From positions 1-46,103 of the forward strand of contig WFPP01000111.1 in assembly GCA_015487495.1 (NCBI GenBank): DNA of 46,103 nt, given 5' to 3'. Below, in pieces: positions 25,437 to 42,199 of this stretch (the stretch's first letter is position 1; each line of letters opens with the position of its first letter). Origin of the DNA: Thiomicrorhabdus sp. (GTDB lineage: Bacteria; Pseudomonadota; Gammaproteobacteria; Thiomicrospirales; Thiomicrospiraceae). Made by a program: the position numbers and the translations under genes. Under the pieces are notes generated by a model, which worked only from the letters and a program-made list of their open reading frames with translations, searched no databases and was not told the origin of the DNA.

Positions 25437-26783
25437 TTATTTTTCAAAGTAGGCGTACACTTGAGATACTGTAAAAAAAGAACCCCATACCAAAATCTTA
25501 TTCGTCGCCTGCTTTTGAATGAATTCAACCGCTTCTTGAACACTCTCTTGAACCAAAATGGCTTTTGAATCAACGCCAGCCTGCAATAACAATGCTACCA
25601 ACTCAGACACAGGCATTGCACGTGAAATACCTAAATCAGCCACCACCCAATGTGAAATAAAAGGCATCATAACCTTAACCATTGGTAACGCATCCTTATC
25701 CTTTAAAACAGAAAAAATGGCGGTATAACATGCGCTATAACGAGAAGACTCATTTTTCTGGGTTTCTTGCTGTAAATACAACGCCAAAGCATTCGCCGAT
25801 TGAGGGTTATGTGCAACATCCACCAACCACGTTTGATGCCCACGTTCCAATAATTCCAGGCGCCCAGGATGCCTTGCTTGCGTTAACCCTTTTATAATGG
25901 ATTCTTTATCCACAGAGAAGCGCCCTTTTCTCCTCTCTGTTAATGCCTGTAATGCAACCACAACCCCTGCGGCATTTTGTACTTGAAATTCCCCTTTTAA
26001 ACTAGGATAAGGCAACTGAATGAAAGAGGAGTTTTCAAACCATGAAAAAAATCCCCCCCCCCTACCAGACTGCCACAAAATACTCCAATATTGTTCCGCC
26101 TGCTCTAATACAAAATCTTGATTTAATTGAATAAAAGGCACACTATGTTGGTCTGCATACCTTTTTAAACTCTCAGGCGGAAAAGGATCTGAACACACTG
26201 CCAGTTTTCCTGAGCGCATAATCCCCGCTTTTTCCGTTGCAATAACACTGCGATCATCACCAAGCCACTCAACATGGTCAATGTCAATCGCGGTAATTAA
26301 GGCCAAGTCCGCATCCACAACATTAACAGCATCCAAACGACCTCCCAGCCCAACTTCCAATACCACCACATCCAGACAGGCCTGTTTAAAAATCGTCAAT
26401 GCAGCCAATGTTGCAAACTCGAAATAAGTCAGTTTGGTTGCCTCACGAGCCTGTTCAATCTGTGAAAACGCCTGAACAATGCTTGCATCCCCAACAGGCA
26501 ATCCTTCAATTTGAATACGTTCATTAAAAAATTGAATGTGGGGCGACGTATAAGCGCCAACACGGTAACCAGCCGCCTTTAATATAGCAACCAGCATAGC
26601 CACACTCGAGCCTTTTCCATTGGTGCCCGCCACACTGATAACGAGAGGGGCTGGACGCGTCACCTTCAGTCGGTTCGCAACCTGTCGAATCCGTTCCAGC
26701 CCTAAATCAATTTCTTCTGCATGCAAATTCAATAACCAGTCAATCCAACACTCCAAACTGGCTCGTTTATCAGGAGAACGCAT
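25437..26783 (-). CDS. folC: Bifunctional folylpolyglutamate/dihydrofolate synthase
   Basis: A 448-residue Mur-ligase-family enzyme adding glutamate to folates and dihydropteroate. SVAGTNGKGSSVAML is the P-loop, EVGLGGRLDAVNVVDADLALITAIDIDHVEWLG the folate/Mg region, and the C-terminal domain opens with a LVDVAHNPQSA stretch. A G10 tract on the coding strand (plus-strand C10, 26053-26062) encodes a Gly-Gly-Gly in a loop around residues 241-243; losing or gaining one base would truncate this normally essential enzyme. Confidence 0.95.
   Translation of the reverse strand: MRSPDKRASLECWIDWLLNLHAEEIDLGLERIRQVANRLKVTRPAPLVISVAGTNGKGSSVAMLVAILKAAGYRVGAYTSPHIQFFNERIQIEGLPVGDASIVQAFSQIEQAREATKLTYFEFATLAALTIFKQACLDVVVLEVGLGGRLDAVNVVDADLALITAIDIDHVEWLGDDRSVIATEKAGIMRSGKLAVCSDPFPPESLKRYADQHSVPFIQLNQDFVLEQAEQYWSILWQSGRGGGFFSWFENSSFIQLPYPSLKGEFQVQNAAGVVVALQALTERRKGRFSVDKESIIKGLTQARHPGRLELLERGHQTWLVDVAHNPQSANALALYLQQETQKNESSRYSACYTAIFSVLKDKDALPMVKVMMPFISHWVVADLGISRAMPVSELVALLLQAGVDSKAILVQESVQEAVEFIQKQATNKILVWGSFFTVSQVYAYFEK
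26053..26062 (-). repeat. G10 homopolymer in folC
   Basis: Ten consecutive C on the plus strand, G on the coding strand, followed on the coding strand by A and T7. It is the longest homopolymer of G/C in the window and lies inside a gene. It encodes the last two bases of an Arg codon, two GGG and most of a GGA. Confidence 0.95.
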
Positions 26784-37956: not shown

Positions 37957-38051
37957 GCATGATCTACAACCACACATGTTTAGGAAAGCACAAACTCACA
38001 ATATTAGCGTAAATCCATTTCTTAACATCCGGTTTTATTGCCTTATTTTTA

Positions 38052-38086
38052 TAAAAAAGCTCACACTTACCTATGGGCTTTTTTAT
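38052..38086 (+). terminator. Intrinsic terminator downstream of queE
   Basis: AAAAAAGCTC (38053-38062) pairs with GGGCTTTTTT (38075-38084), one G-U, around a 12-nt loop, with the T-run forming the tail. It lies about 100 nt after the queE stop and separates queE from the metal-transport operon. The A-tract makes it potentially bidirectional, but no gene converges on it. Confidence 0.75.
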
Positions 38087-38123
38087 TTAACCACTCTCCT
38101 TATACTTCATTTCCTTCCTTTTA

Positions 38124-38157
38124 TGCTATAGTTTTATCCAGTTTAATTAAGGAACTG
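38124..38157 (+). promoter_or_regulatory. Candidate promoter and operator of the troABCD operon
   Basis: TGCTATAGT (38124-38132) is an extended -10 with no strong -35. Just downstream, CAGTT (38139-38143) and AACTG (38153-38157) form a 19-bp interrupted palindrome around an A/T-rich centre, a geometry suited to a dimeric metal-responsive repressor. It does not match a Zur, Fur or MntR box I can recognise, so the operator call is tentative. The leader to the troA ATG is about 80 nt. Confidence 0.35.
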
Positions 38158-38218
38158 TATCATTCATCGTAATATCATTTTTAACCATACTTTTCCCAAC
38201 AAAATAGAATTAAAAAAC

Positions 38219-39106
38219 ATGAACAAACGTCTCTTATTCAGCTTTTTTTGCTTTATCATGACCTCTCTACCGGTACACGCACAACTCAATATTGTGACCA
38301 CCACGGGTATGATTGCAGATTTAACAAAGAACATCGGTGGCAAACACGTGAAAGTTACGGCTTTGATGGGCACCGGCGTTGACCCTCATTTATACAAAGC
38401 CACCCAAGGCGATTTAAGACGTTTGGTCAAAGCCGATATTATCCTTTATAACGGCCTGAACCTTGAAGGAAAATTACAAGCTATTTTTGAAAAAATGGCT
38501 CATAAAAAACCCGTTTTTGCCATCAGCGCCCACATTCCAAAAGCCGAACTCATGTACCACGACAACACCCCTGACCCCCATATTTGGTTTGATGTGGCAC
38601 TCTGGCAAAAAGCGGGGGTGCGTATTCTGGAGATTTTAAAAACACAAGACCCCACCCATCAAGCCGACTATGAACGTAATGCCAGCGCCTACTTTACCCA
38701 ATTACAACAACTCGACCAATGGGTGACCACGGAAGTTCAACGTATTCCCGAATCACGCCGTATTTTAATTACCGCACACGATGCGTTTGGGTACTTTGGC
38801 CAAGCTTATCAAATAAAAGTGCTCGGACTGCAAGGCATGAGTACTGCATCCGAATTTGGACTGCAAGACATTAAGCAACTGAAAGACACAATTGTTCAAC
38901 ACCGTGTTCAAGCCGTTTTTGTTGAATCCAGTCTCTCCCCACGTTTTATTGAAGCCGTGGTTAAAGGGGTTGAAGCCGAAGGCACACCTCTAAAAATTGG
39001 AGGCGAACTGTACTCCGATGCCATGGGGCTGACCGACACACCCGCTGGCACTTACATTGGCATGGTAAAACACAATGTCAACACCATTGTATCGGCATTA
39101 AAATAA
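38219..39106 (+). CDS. troA: Metal ABC transporter substrate-binding protein, TroA type
   Basis: A 295-residue periplasmic cluster A-I binding protein with a signal peptide cleaved near residue 20 (PVHA|Q). The putative metal ligands are H57, H121, H187 and D267; their spacing (64, 66, 80) closely matches TroA of Treponema (H68, H133, H199, D279). The TAHDAFGYF...LQGMSTASE stretch is TroA-like. There is no His-rich loop as in ZnuA, so Mn, Zn or Fe are all possible. The stop overlaps the ATPase start (TAATG). Confidence 0.9.
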   Translation: MNKRLLFSFFCFIMTSLPVHAQLNIVTTTGMIADLTKNIGGKHVKVTALMGTGVDPHLYKATQGDLRRLVKADIILYNGLNLEGKLQAIFEKMAHKKPVFAISAHIPKAELMYHDNTPDPHIWFDVALWQKAGVRILEILKTQDPTHQADYERNASAYFTQLQQLDQWVTTEVQRIPESRRILITAHDAFGYFGQAYQIKVLGLQGMSTASEFGLQDIKQLKDTIVQHRVQAVFVESSLSPRFIEAVVKGVEAEGTPLKIGGELYSDAMGLTDTPAGTYIGMVKHNVNTIVSALK

Positions 39107-39909
39107 TGAAAAAAACAGCCACACAAAATTCTCCCCCCCCCTTAATGGTCAGCAATCTCAGTATGCGCTACCACCATAAACCTGTTTTAACCGATGTCAG
39201 CTTTCAAATTCCCGAAGGCAAAACCATTGCCATTGTCGGACCAAATGGCGCGGGAAAATCGACCCTGTTAAAAGGCATTATGGGACTCGAACCGACCATG
39301 GGGGGGGAAATTTGTTTTTTTGGCAAACCTTTAACCCATAAACGCTTAGCCATTGCCTACGTGCCACAACGAGAAGAAATTGACTGGGATTTTCCCATCA
39401 ACGTATTTGATGTGGTTTTAATGGGACGACATGGCCAGCTAAAACTGTGGCAAAGACCCTCAAAAATTGACAAAGACATTGCCAAACAAGCTTTAAACGA
39501 TTTAAACATGTGGGACTTTAAAGATCGTCAAATCAGCGAACTCTCTGGTGGGCAACAACAACGGGTATTTTTAGCTCGCGCACTGGCACAAAAAGCCCGT
39601 CTTTATTTAATGGACGAACCCTTTTCTGGCGTAGACGTTTCAACCGAAAAAGCCATTATTGAACTGTTTAAAAAACTGAAACGCCAAGGAAAAACCATTG
39701 TATGCGTGCATCACGACCTCAATACGGTGGGAGAATATTTTGACTGGATTATCTTTATTAACGCCCGACTGGTCGCCGCAGGCCCTGTCGAAACCGTGCT
39801 CACCAAAGACAACCTTAATAAAACCTACGGAGGCCGTCTATCGCTCTTAAACGATTTAACCGAAAAAATGTACCGCACCCAGCTTAATAAAGCCCACGAT
39901 ACCGATTAG
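39106..39909 (+). CDS. troB: Metal ABC transporter ATPase, TroB type
   Basis: A 267-residue ABC ATPase powering manganese/zinc/iron import. Walker A GPNGAGKST is at 45-53, signature LSGGQQQR near 147-154, Walker B LYLMDEPF near 167-174, and the H-loop histidine follows in CVHHDLN. Residues 10-12 are Pro-Pro-Pro encoded by a C9 tract (39133-39141); an in-frame ATG at codon 14 lies just after it. A G8 tract (39300-39307) lies within the gene after Walker A. The gene is coupled to troA. Confidence 0.95.
   Translation: MKKTATQNSPPPLMVSNLSMRYHHKPVLTDVSFQIPEGKTIAIVGPNGAGKSTLLKGIMGLEPTMGGEICFFGKPLTHKRLAIAYVPQREEIDWDFPINVFDVVLMGRHGQLKLWQRPSKIDKDIAKQALNDLNMWDFKDRQISELSGGQQQRVFLARALAQKARLYLMDEPFSGVDVSTEKAIIELFKKLKRQGKTIVCVHHDLNTVGEYFDWIIFINARLVAAGPVETVLTKDNLNKTYGGRLSLLNDLTEKMYRTQLNKAHDTD
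39133..39141 (+). repeat. C9 homopolymer near the 5' end of troB
   Basis: Nine consecutive C at codons 10-12 of the ATPase gene. On the opposite strand it reads G9 AGAATTTTG, resembling the G-tract plus A/T pattern seen at other tracts in this window. Confidence 0.95.
39300..39307 (+). repeat. G8 homopolymer inside troB
   Basis: Eight consecutive G across a Met-Gly-Gly codon stretch after Walker A, followed by AAATTTG and a T6 run. Confidence 0.95.
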
Positions 39910-39921
39910 GCAATCCAGACA

Positions 39922-41316
39922 ATGGATGGTTTTACACTCTTCCCCCCCCCTTCTTTCTGGGACAACTGGCTCAGTTTTTGGCGCTTTGAAGATATCAACG
40001 TGCTCTGGGTCTTAATGGGCAGTATCTTACTGGGCATGAGCGCCTCGGTTATTGGAGGCTTTGCCTTTTTACGCAAACGCTCCCTGATTGGTGATGCCCT
40101 TGCACATGCAGCTCTGCCAGGGGTGATGATGGCTTTTCTACTGTTTCAAACCCGCGACCCGCTCATTATATTTATTGGCGCACTGTGCAGCAGTTTTATC
40201 GGATTTTTTCTCATTGACTGGCTGCCCAAAAATACCAAAATAAAAGCCGATACCGCACTTGCCATCACCCTCTCCTTCTTTTTTGCCATAGGGCTTATGT
40301 TACTCTCCTACATTCAAGGACTGGAAGTCAGCAATAAAAGTGGACTGGACAACATTCTTTTTGGACAAGCCGCCGCAATGACTGAAGAGGATATTCAACT
40401 CCTTACCTACGTTACGCTTTTTACCCTCATCACGGTTGTGCTGTTTTTTCAAAAATTTCGACTCATCGCTTTTAATCAAGATTTCGCCCGAACCATCGGC
40501 ATGGCCGTTCATCGCTACGAGCTGTTGCTGGCACTTCTCATCGTAATGTCGGTTGTGGTAGGTCTGCAACTCGTGGGGGTGGTATTAATGGCGGCCATTT
40601 TGCTCACCCCAATCGCCGCCGCACGATTTTGGAGCAATCAGCTGTCGCACATTTTAATCATTGCGTCAATGCTTGGGGCTTTAAGCGCCATTATCAGCAC
40701 TCAACTTTCCTACCTCGCCCCCGCCATGCCCACAGGCCCGTGGATGGTCGTCAGTCTCTCAGTGTTGTTTATACTCTCCCTGCTGTTTGCCCCAAAAAAA
40801 GGGCTGGTAAAACGCTATTTTGAGTTTCAGGCACTGCGCCAACAAGTGGCCGAAGAAAATATTTTGCGTACCCTTTACAAACTACTGGAACGCAAAGAGT
40901 TTATGCACAATCACTTTACTCAAGCCGACATACAATCGTTTCGAAACATGCCCAGCAGCTGTTTACAAAGCACCTTAAAACAGCTCGGAAAAAAAGGCCT
41001 TATCAAAGCCTCAACACAAGGAGTGCAACTCACCCAAAGCGGACTGGAACGTGCTACACAACTCACTCGCCGCCACCGTTTATGGGAAAACTACCTCAAC
41101 CAACAGGCCAAACTGTTGCCAGAACAAGTACATCAACAAGCCGAACGCATTGAACACATTCTTACCGATGCACAAGAAGCCCAATTGCAACGGGAGCTCA
41201 GTAACTCACAATCCGATCCACACGGTAACGCCATTCCCACTACACACAAAGCAGACAAAACGCAAGACGCCATCTCTTCCACATCTAATACAAGGGGGGG
41301 GGAAAATTTTGATTAA
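39922..41316 (+). CDS. troC: Metal ABC permease fused to an MntR/DtxR-like regulator domain
   Basis: A 464-residue protein. Residues about 25-290 are an ABC-3 permease with 8-9 helices (FAFLRKRSLIGDALAHAALPG is diagnostic). Residues about 305-440 match a DtxR/MntR repressor: a winged helix (about 311-380, ending LTQSGLERATQLTRRHRLWE), then a metal-binding dimerisation domain with VHQQAERIEH and DPHGNAIP. H385, E389, H404, E408, E411 and H412 align with DtxR/MntR metal ligands; glutamate at 408 is the manganese-type choice, while the N-terminal helix ligand position holds Asn. C9 (39942-39950) lies at codons 8-10 and G9 spans the stop region. Confidence 0.9.
   Translation: MDGFTLFPPPSFWDNWLSFWRFEDINVLWVLMGSILLGMSASVIGGFAFLRKRSLIGDALAHAALPGVMMAFLLFQTRDPLIIFIGALCSSFIGFFLIDWLPKNTKIKADTALAITLSFFFAIGLMLLSYIQGLEVSNKSGLDNILFGQAAAMTEEDIQLLTYVTLFTLITVVLFFQKFRLIAFNQDFARTIGMAVHRYELLLALLIVMSVVVGLQLVGVVLMAAILLTPIAAARFWSNQLSHILIIASMLGALSAIISTQLSYLAPAMPTGPWMVVSLSVLFILSLLFAPKKGLVKRYFEFQALRQQVAEENILRTLYKLLERKEFMHNHFTQADIQSFRNMPSSCLQSTLKQLGKKGLIKASTQGVQLTQSGLERATQLTRRHRLWENYLNQQAKLLPEQVHQQAERIEHILTDAQEAQLQRELSNSQSDPHGNAIPTTHKADKTQDAISSTSNTRGGENFD
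39942..39950 (+). repeat. C9 homopolymer near the 5' end of troC
   Basis: Nine consecutive C encoding Pro-Pro-Pro at codons 8-10 of the permease-regulator fusion. A single-base change would shift the frame after about 10 residues. Confidence 0.95.
41294..41302 (+). repeat. G9 homopolymer at the troC-troD junction
   Basis: Nine consecutive G followed by AAAATTTT. It encodes the Gly-Gly near the end of troC and is also the only ribosome-binding-like sequence before the troD TTG start at 41309, giving a spacing of about 6 nt. Confidence 0.9.
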
Positions 41317-42199
41317 TGATATTTGGATTCTTGCCACCGCTTCTCTGGTGGCCGCCGCTTGTGCACTCGTTGGCGTTTTTTTAATCTTGCGCCGCCAAGC
41401 GCTGATGGGCGATGCCATTAGCCACTCCGTACTGCTTGGCATCGTGCTAGCCTACCTCATCACCGACAGCCGTGCCTTACCAGTCATGTTGGGGGGCGCC
41501 GTCCTTATTGGCTTACTCACCGCATGGCTCAGCGACAGCCTGCACCGCATAGGAAAACTGCAAAACGACGCCAGTATCGGCATTGTCTTTACCCTGTTTT
41601 TCGCCATTGGGGTCATTTTAGTTTCACTTTATACCGGTCAAATTGACCTGGATCAAGAGTGTATTTTATATGGTGAAATCGCATTCATTCCTTTCGATAC
41701 CCTTACCATAGGAGGGGGGGGAAATATTGCAGACGGATTTGAAATCGGTCCCAGAGCATTTTGGAGCATCGCTATTGTTTTTATGATTGTACTCATCAGT
41801 ATTCTCATCACCTTTCACCGACTGCAAACCGTGGCCTTTCATCCAAACCTAGCTCTCTCTTTAGGCATTAACACTGTTTTTTGGCACTATTTTTTAATGA
41901 CACTGGTTTCCATGACCACCGTTGCCTCCTTCGATGCCGTCGGTGCCATTTTGGTGGTCGCCCTCCTCGTCATCCCCGCCAGCAGTGCCTACCTTGTCGC
42001 CAAATCACTCAAAGGCATGCTTTGGAGTGCCATTGCCTACTCTCAAACGTCCGTTGCCATCGGCTACACACTCGCCTATCAACTCGACAGCGCCATTTCA
42101 GCCTCCATTTCTGTCAGCGCTGGCCTGTTACTGCTCCTGACCATTTTGATACTGGAAATTCAAAAAAAACGCACTCACAATCTACAAAAAGCATCATAA
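41309..42199 (+). CDS. troD: Second metal ABC permease, TroD type
   Basis: A 296-residue ABC-3 permease with about 8-9 helices, beginning at TTG 41309 (INDIWILATASLVAAACAL). FLILRRQALMGDAISHSVLLG is the family motif. The frame is open upstream to 41051 but that stretch lies inside troC, is not hydrophobic and has no permease character, so it is excluded. Start and troC stop overlap by 8 nt, with the G9 tract as Shine-Dalgarno. A G8 tract (41714-41721) encodes part of a Gly-Gly-Gly-Gly loop. There is no C-terminal regulator domain. Confidence 0.9.
   Translation: MINDIWILATASLVAAACALVGVFLILRRQALMGDAISHSVLLGIVLAYLITDSRALPVMLGGAVLIGLLTAWLSDSLHRIGKLQNDASIGIVFTLFFAIGVILVSLYTGQIDLDQECILYGEIAFIPFDTLTIGGGGNIADGFEIGPRAFWSIAIVFMIVLISILITFHRLQTVAFHPNLALSLGINTVFWHYFLMTLVSMTTVASFDAVGAILVVALLVIPASSAYLVAKSLKGMLWSAIAYSQTSVAIGYTLAYQLDSAISASISVSAGLLLLLTILILEIQKKRTHNLQKAS
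41714..41721 (+). repeat. G8 homopolymer inside troD
   Basis: Eight consecutive G followed by AAATATT, in a glycine-rich loop of the second permease. Confidence 0.95.

Follow-up and report, generated by a model that had tools for sequence, protein, structure and literature searches.

Does a repressor-like domain that is joined to a metal permease act on genes, or on the transporter that carries it? The question is raised by gene CR of Thiomicrorhabdus sp. contig WFPP01000111.1, of which a stretch of 46,103 nucleotides was analysed (the whole of this stretch is called the window below). CR belongs to an operon of the troABCD type with the gene order A-B-CR-D, and its product joins an ABC-3 permease to a C-terminal tail of the DtxR/MntR type (Table 1). 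The original prediction described it as an ABC metal permease fused to a complete MntR/DtxR-like sensor and offered two readings, namely a membrane-tethered sensor which gates transport directly, and a membrane-bound repressor of its own operon.

Gene organization and domain content

CR is a single open frame from the ATG at 39922 to the stop codon at 41314-41316. Residues 27-289 match ABC-3 (PF00950, E-value=3.6e-62) and residues 371-440 match Fe_dep_repr_C (PF02742, E-value=3.5e-19; 69 bits against a cut-off of 27). Coordinates, frame and residues of the predicted fusion were found to be correct, with both families above their cut-offs. The profile score together with a permease fold identifies CR as an ABC-3 metal permease, and the profile score together with the ligand residues places its tail in PF02742. 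The tail has neither of the two features by which we define a DtxR/MntR repressor, a PF01325 match and a conserved recognition helix.

For the ATPase encoded by gene B, the top NCBIfam models are those of the manganese/iron and the Deinococcus MntA ATPases, both of which score below their cut-offs. The product of gene D shows 67-88% identity to D of relatives in the genus; its probable start is a TTG codon at 41309, overlapping the end of CR.

Table 1. Features of the metal transport operon in the window
Feature	Position	Strand	Details and evidence
Upstream region of A	37957..38218	+	without the MntR-type operator common in genus relatives; operator comparison
A, periplasmic metal-binding protein	38219..39106	+	PF01297, 4.4e-78; closest solved relative TroA (1k0f), 1.8e-75
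B, ABC ATPase	39106..39909	+	PF00005, 4.6e-32
CR, ABC-3 permease with DtxR/MntR-type tail	39922..41316	+	464 aa; Pfam, AlphaFold, Foldseek
Permease domain of CR	40000..40788	+	residues 27-289; PF00950, PsaBC fold match
Single continuous predicted helix of CR	40804..40893	+	residues 295-324; basic linker leading into sensor helix 1, contains N313; AlphaFold model
Winged helix-turn-helix of CR	40909..41034	+	residues 330-371; recognition helix 343-356 unconserved; model, site rates, motif counts, PF01325 blank
Metal-binding/dimerisation domain of CR	41035..41241	+	residues 372-440; six ligands, W388, DPHGNAIP; PF02742, 3.5e-19
D, second ABC-3 permease, no tail	41309..42199	+	PF00950, 3.1e-50 on the longer ORF 41051-42199

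The window also contains ten runs of G or C, 7-10 bases long, at positions 26053, 27097, 29565, 34477, 39133, 39300, 39942, 41294, 41714 and 42277. Those of length 8-9 (eight) outnumber those of length 7 (one), and several adjoin A/T-rich flanks such as AAATTT near the ends of operon genes. The near relatives L049, L050, L054, L055 and L056 carry 4-11 such runs per locus, and 25 other genus loci that were counted carry 0-1. Since the G9 run near the end of CR (41294-41316) sits within the open D frame (41051-42199), a one-base slippage might fuse CR and D into a single long protein.

Distribution of the fusion

PF02742 was located in a long frame in 31 of 32 genomes of the genus, and all 31 frames are tailed permeases; the lone genome without one (G016) is 82% complete. 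When the tail alignment was used to scan the named genome collection, at least 588 confirmed stretches encoding relatives of the tail were obtained. The closest named relatives, among the matches listed, are Thiomicrorhabdus species. The best 80 of the at least 588 come from Verrucomicrobiota (the largest share), Chlorobiota, Cytophagaceae, Deltaproteobacteria, Thermoanaerobaculia, Phycisphaerales, Sumerlaeota and Hydrogenedentota, and fused relatives span at least six phyla. Among these 80 loci the A-B-CR-D layout is usual, and in 78 of them the tail shares its frame with a permease; the other two (L119 and L142) reach a contig end before the permease and were entered as fused. The fusion is genuine, of old origin and broadly distributed. 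Because the fused architecture is conserved across the genus and in other phyla, we exclude a frame error or the chance joining of two genes, the flaw that the original prediction had itself raised, as vanishingly improbable.

Both permeases are tailed at many of the loci sampled from the phylum of L148 (Phycisphaerales) and from that of L085 (Verrucomicrobiae). Fifty stretches were chosen from these two phyla by frame length, three of which (L160, L174 and L201) proved to be without a tailed permease; the longish frames in G495, G497, G528, G561, G467 and G440 were left outside the counts. Split tails occur at loci of the phylum around L148 (L194-L197, L168, L169 and L171), and are of several kinds: D tails without the winged helix, C tails with altered ligands, and D tails consisting of the winged helix alone.

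Predicted structure

The AlphaFold model of CR, based on a 45-row alignment, has a pLDDT of 91.4 and a pTM of 0.83. Foldseek matched the permease half to PsaBC (TM-score by target 0.87-0.91), and the tail to DR2539, DtxR and IdeR with a best E-value of 4.2e-6. The TM-score by target of the tail is about 0.8-0.86 against two-domain chains and 0.5-0.7 against longer chains. In the model the last membrane helix (residues 271-289) is followed by an unbroken helix (residues 295-324) which leads into helix 1 of the sensor. The linker part of this helix (residues 295-311) is basic, with a mean net charge of +3.3 to +4.9 in three groups of fused tails versus +0.7 to +1.1 in rows of free proteins.

Metal site of the tail

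In the columns of the DtxR/MntR alignment, CR has H385, E389, H404, E408, E411 and H412, N313 at the place of the helix-1 ligand, and the DPHGNAIP motif at D432-P439. The six ligands and the motif are therefore where the original prediction had put them, and the ligands are intact in all 31 tails of the genus. Its observation that Asn replaces the ligand of the N-terminal helix also holds for the genus, N313 being present in 30 of the 31 tails and the remaining one gapped; in free proteins this place is Asp in 68 of 92. By analogy with DtxR, we take the two metal sites to be H385/E389/H404 and E408/E411/H412, helped by N313.

Wider counts were made on an unfiltered set of 83 fused C tails, comprising 31 from the genus, 5 from the class and 47 from other loci. 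With His or Asp allowed at position 404 and Glu, Asp or Cys at 408, and with no motif filter, the six ligands are intact in 74 of the 83. The same test is passed by 64 of 92 free proteins, so the ligand set of the tail is no more than the family demands. In the other nine C tails the ligands are altered, heavily so in four (L194-L197), and metal sensing is therefore not universal. A tryptophan corresponding to W388 is found in 83/83 of the unfiltered C tails versus 5/92 free proteins. Another alignment set holds 106 fused tails, L072-L083 having been omitted because their genomes were repeated; 70 of the 106 came via a pattern demanding [LIV][TV]R[RHN]HRLWE, so that H385, R386, L387, W388 and E389 are fixed there by construction. 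The conservation of the ligands supports the view that the tail may sense metal.

The DNA-reading helix

A repressor made as part of a permease has a precedent in Chlamydia, and because YtgCR (CT069) of the ytgABCD operon likewise consists of a permease with a C-terminal DtxR-like domain (PMC7755916, PMC5599777, PMC6504234), the architecture of CR is not new. According to these papers, YtgR is released by cleavage during infection and acts as an iron-dependent repressor (PMC5599777, PMC7755916, PMC6504234), binds DNA (PMC5599777, PMC6504234), and is called the sole identified iron-dependent regulator in Chlamydia. Full-length YtgC repressed a reporter in E. coli, and the review among them credits the cleavage products (PMC5599777, PMC7755916, PMC6504234). 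The gene order A-B-CR-D and the domains are, by this account, the same as in ytgABC(R)D. CR might accordingly yield a repressor of the same kind, either cleaved off or acting at the membrane, which in its metal-loaded form would repress the operon that encodes it.

The helix with which such a repressor would read DNA is not conserved. Across the 31 CR genes of the genus it evolves at a relative site rate of 2.24, compared with rates of 0.50 and 0.52 for the core metal region and the permease, respectively. The corresponding helix of 29 free MntR proteins from the genus has a rate of 0.15, the lowest among the parts compared, each alignment being scaled separately. The recognition-helix motif of free MntR, which was defined after the alignment had been inspected, occurs in 69/92 free proteins versus 0/153 fused tails, D tails being outside this count. 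CR residues 344, 346, 347, 349 and 350 correspond in our alignment to S37, P39, T40, S42 and Q43 of DtxR, which we take to be DNA contacts. Two IdeR-DNA structure entries among the Foldseek matches carry the changes P39G and Q43A.

Profile searches gave a similar picture. The domain search of the tail which the original prediction had proposed returned PF02742, while the DNA-binding family PF01325 gave no match at E<=1 in four fused tails, CR included, a result to be read with the fact that HMMER filters discard most matches above about 0.1; PF01325 matches a sister genome's free MntR at 4.7e-14. To call the sensor complete is thus an overstatement, the metal domain and a predicted winged-helix fold being present and the DNA-binding profile unmatched. 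A loss of positive charge, as a mark of lost DNA binding, was not seen in the fused tails, the net charge of the helix-turn-helix being +1.7 to +3.0 versus +1.3 to +1.6 in free proteins. The buried positions of the recognition helix are conserved in the fused tails, and the helix is therefore still under some constraint.

The unconserved recognition helix and the missing free-type motif agree with the early hint that the DNA function may be altered, and suggest that the tail probably does not act as a repressor. Since the metal ligands are kept and the DNA-reading residues are not, the tail may switch the importer instead of genes.

Separate MntR-family proteins and the putative operator

It had also been asked whether genomes with such a tail lack a free MntR. 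Most of those examined have one: a separate member of the DtxR/MntR family, defined as any other PF02742 protein in an open frame of <=358 aa and hence including proteins other than demonstrated MntR and possibly some with a permease part, was found in 106 of 110 genomes carrying the fusion. These include 29 of 31 fusion genomes of the genus, all five other fusion genomes of the class sample, and 28 of the 30 genomes behind named loci (30 of 69 non-genus loci were taken), the two exceptions both being labelled Thermoanaerobaculia. Among the fetched genomes with tailed permeases from the two sampled phyla the counts are 14/14 and 30/30, those for separate and fused members in one of these samples being "at least" values, among the matches listed. 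A separate frame of the DtxR/MntR type lies within the same stretch in 31 of the best 80 loci (of at least 588). In the class sample (n=274), a separate member is present in 6/7 genomes with the fusion versus 15/267 without it (Fisher 6.5e-7, uncorrected for kinship).

PF02742 in a short frame was found in 30 of 32 genus genomes, the window's genome and G001 being without it. The window's genome (93.8% complete), in which no other PF02742 protein was found, is therefore an exception, in which the tail could have assumed the role of the repressor. In the sister genomes L006, L018 and L025, mntR is located between ntrB and a gene of 154 aa. The corresponding interval in the window's genome, between ntrB and a 133-aa frame homologous to the 154-aa gene (contig C33:26072-26958, L205), gave no match to mntR. 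An assembly gap was rejected as the cause, since ntrB and the homologue are adjacent on one unbroken contig.

A palindrome like TTTAGCCATGACTAAC, which we infer to be the MntR operator, precedes gene A in 23 of 28 usable upstream regions of the genus at <=4 mismatches (about 1.0 expected by shuffling) and in 18 of the 28 at <=3 mismatches (0.13 expected). Such a region was available for 28 of the 31 fused genus genes, and the consensus was taken from those same regions. Both genomes without a free MntR lack the palindrome: the best site in the window, located where the preceding gene ends, has 5 mismatches, and that in G001 has 6. Genomes with a free MntR that go beyond 4 mismatches are L036, L058 and L051 (5, 5 and 7, respectively). 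Presence of the palindrome is associated with that of free MntR (Fisher p 0.026). A search for a strong palindrome before A in the window found none, a weak result since the same test also misses the operator-bearing L035 and L056; nor was a Fur-type box found in the window at <=3 mismatches, which is equally weak since none was expected. The window's genome contains one Fur-family gene. In G001, where free MntR and operator are likewise absent, the fused tail (L033) has lost the DPHG motif and kept the six ligands.

The window's genome has lost both the repressor and the likely operator and has retained the tail with all its ligands, as expected if the tail acts on the transporter instead of on this operator; the tail could also have taken over repression at another site in this genome. 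A repressor of the YtgCR kind is nevertheless unlikely in our view. It has the shared architecture and the missing partner of this one genome in its favour, but the recognition helix evolves fast in the genus, nearly all fusion genomes have a separate family member, and the operator follows free MntR rather than the tail. The second reading of the original prediction, the membrane-bound repressor, is weakened on the same grounds.

Origin of the tail

A quick tree was calculated from 93 of 270 aligned rows, drawn by group, over 133 columns; it is unrooted and has many open forks. Of its free rows, 38/39 lie on one side of a branch with SH-aLRT 99, with zero fused tails there. The odd free-labelled row outside this branch (L201) is an ATPase-like frame of 941 aa with a DtxR-type domain. 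Because the free branch holds no fused tail, the genus tail does not appear to have been copied recently from the MntR of the same genus, nor does this unrooted tree of few columns support a fusion event in which that MntR was recently joined to the permease. Tails of the genus cluster with a Cytophagaceae tail and three further ones from gammaproteobacteria (support 93, unstarred), and a fourth from that class (L069) is placed elsewhere.

Proposed mechanism and alternatives

We lean towards the view that the tail is a metal sensor which acts as the regulatory domain of the transporter, gating transport instead of genes. This is the first reading of the original prediction, and the indirect evidence of sequence and model favours it. 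The ABCD transporter would import Mn2+ or a similar divalent metal, and rising cytoplasmic metal would fill both tail sites, whereupon the metal-filled tail would repack or dimerise. Because sensor helix 1 is continuous with the post-membrane linker in the model, the two forming one predicted rigid helix, the change could be carried to the interface of permease and ATPase, where it would stop transport (trans-inhibition). Transcription would normally be handled by the separate MntR on the palindromic operator before A.

There are parallels for such a scheme. MetNI and ModABC are ABC importers that are trans-inhibited by dimerising C-terminal domains, according to a review on transporter regulation, in which the term "DtxR" is absent (PMC10710835). 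As in these importers, a C-terminal cytoplasmic domain of CR would sense the imported substrate and halt the cycle; their domains, as described there, are on the ATPase and have other folds, whereas the CR tail is on the permease and is related to repressors. Since just one of the two permeases encoded here is tailed, a dimer of tails on the MetNI model would presuppose either that transporters pair up or that two CR subunits form a homodimer.

As improbable as the repressor, in our estimate, is a tail that serves as a metal acceptor or chaperone dock, taking the metal that leaves the permease channel and passing it on, with the transport cycle unregulated. Ligands conserved on the cytoplasmic side of the permease, next to a recognition helix and a tail end that drift, are what one would expect of a dock, but both ligand sets, DPHG and the winged-helix fold would exceed its needs, and no partner is known. 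It is less probable still that the metal-loaded tail is a platform which binds free MntR or another cytoplasmic protein, for example holding MntR at the membrane; the dimerisation domain is common to tail and free MntR and the two mostly coexist, but the tail is intact in the window's genome despite the missing free MntR.

Relation to known systems and significance

Set beside YtgCR, CR differs in that a separate family member is usual and the DNA-reading helix unconserved, the comparison being with the published description of YtgCR. The tail resembles DtxR, MntR, IdeR and ScaR (structures DR2539 8pvt, DtxR and ScaR 3hrs) in its predicted two-domain fold, its six ligands and DPHG, and differs from them in the PF01325 blank, in Asn at the helix-1 ligand, in Trp388 and in being tethered to a membrane protein. 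The operon is like TroABCD and PsaBCA in having a binding protein closest to TroA and a permease of the PsaBC fold, and unlike them in the tail on one permease (on both, in some loci of other phyla).

The domain pair of CR is detectable by any Pfam scan. In the literature searched we found no tailed permeases outside Chlamydia, which is weak evidence of absence, subscription literature being thinly covered. The new element is evidence that makes a repressor role of the tail improbable. There is, we would say, an even chance that a large class of metal ABC importers, undescribed in that literature and from at least six phyla, uses a sensor of the DtxR/MntR type which has given up DNA reading as a metal-operated shut-off of the transporter, beside an ordinary MntR.

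This reading would allow a direct test of how metal uptake can be shut off more quickly than by transcription. With it, Chlamydia YtgCR also becomes one member of a broad family, and one may ask if its tail never lost the ability to bind DNA or acquired it anew. If the reading is true, the two tails would form a sensor dimer within one transporter in lineages with both permeases tailed, and the tail would be a clear case of a transport regulator related to a gene regulator, with a repressor-type fold on a permease. The same fold would then sense one metal at two levels, that of the genes and that of transport.
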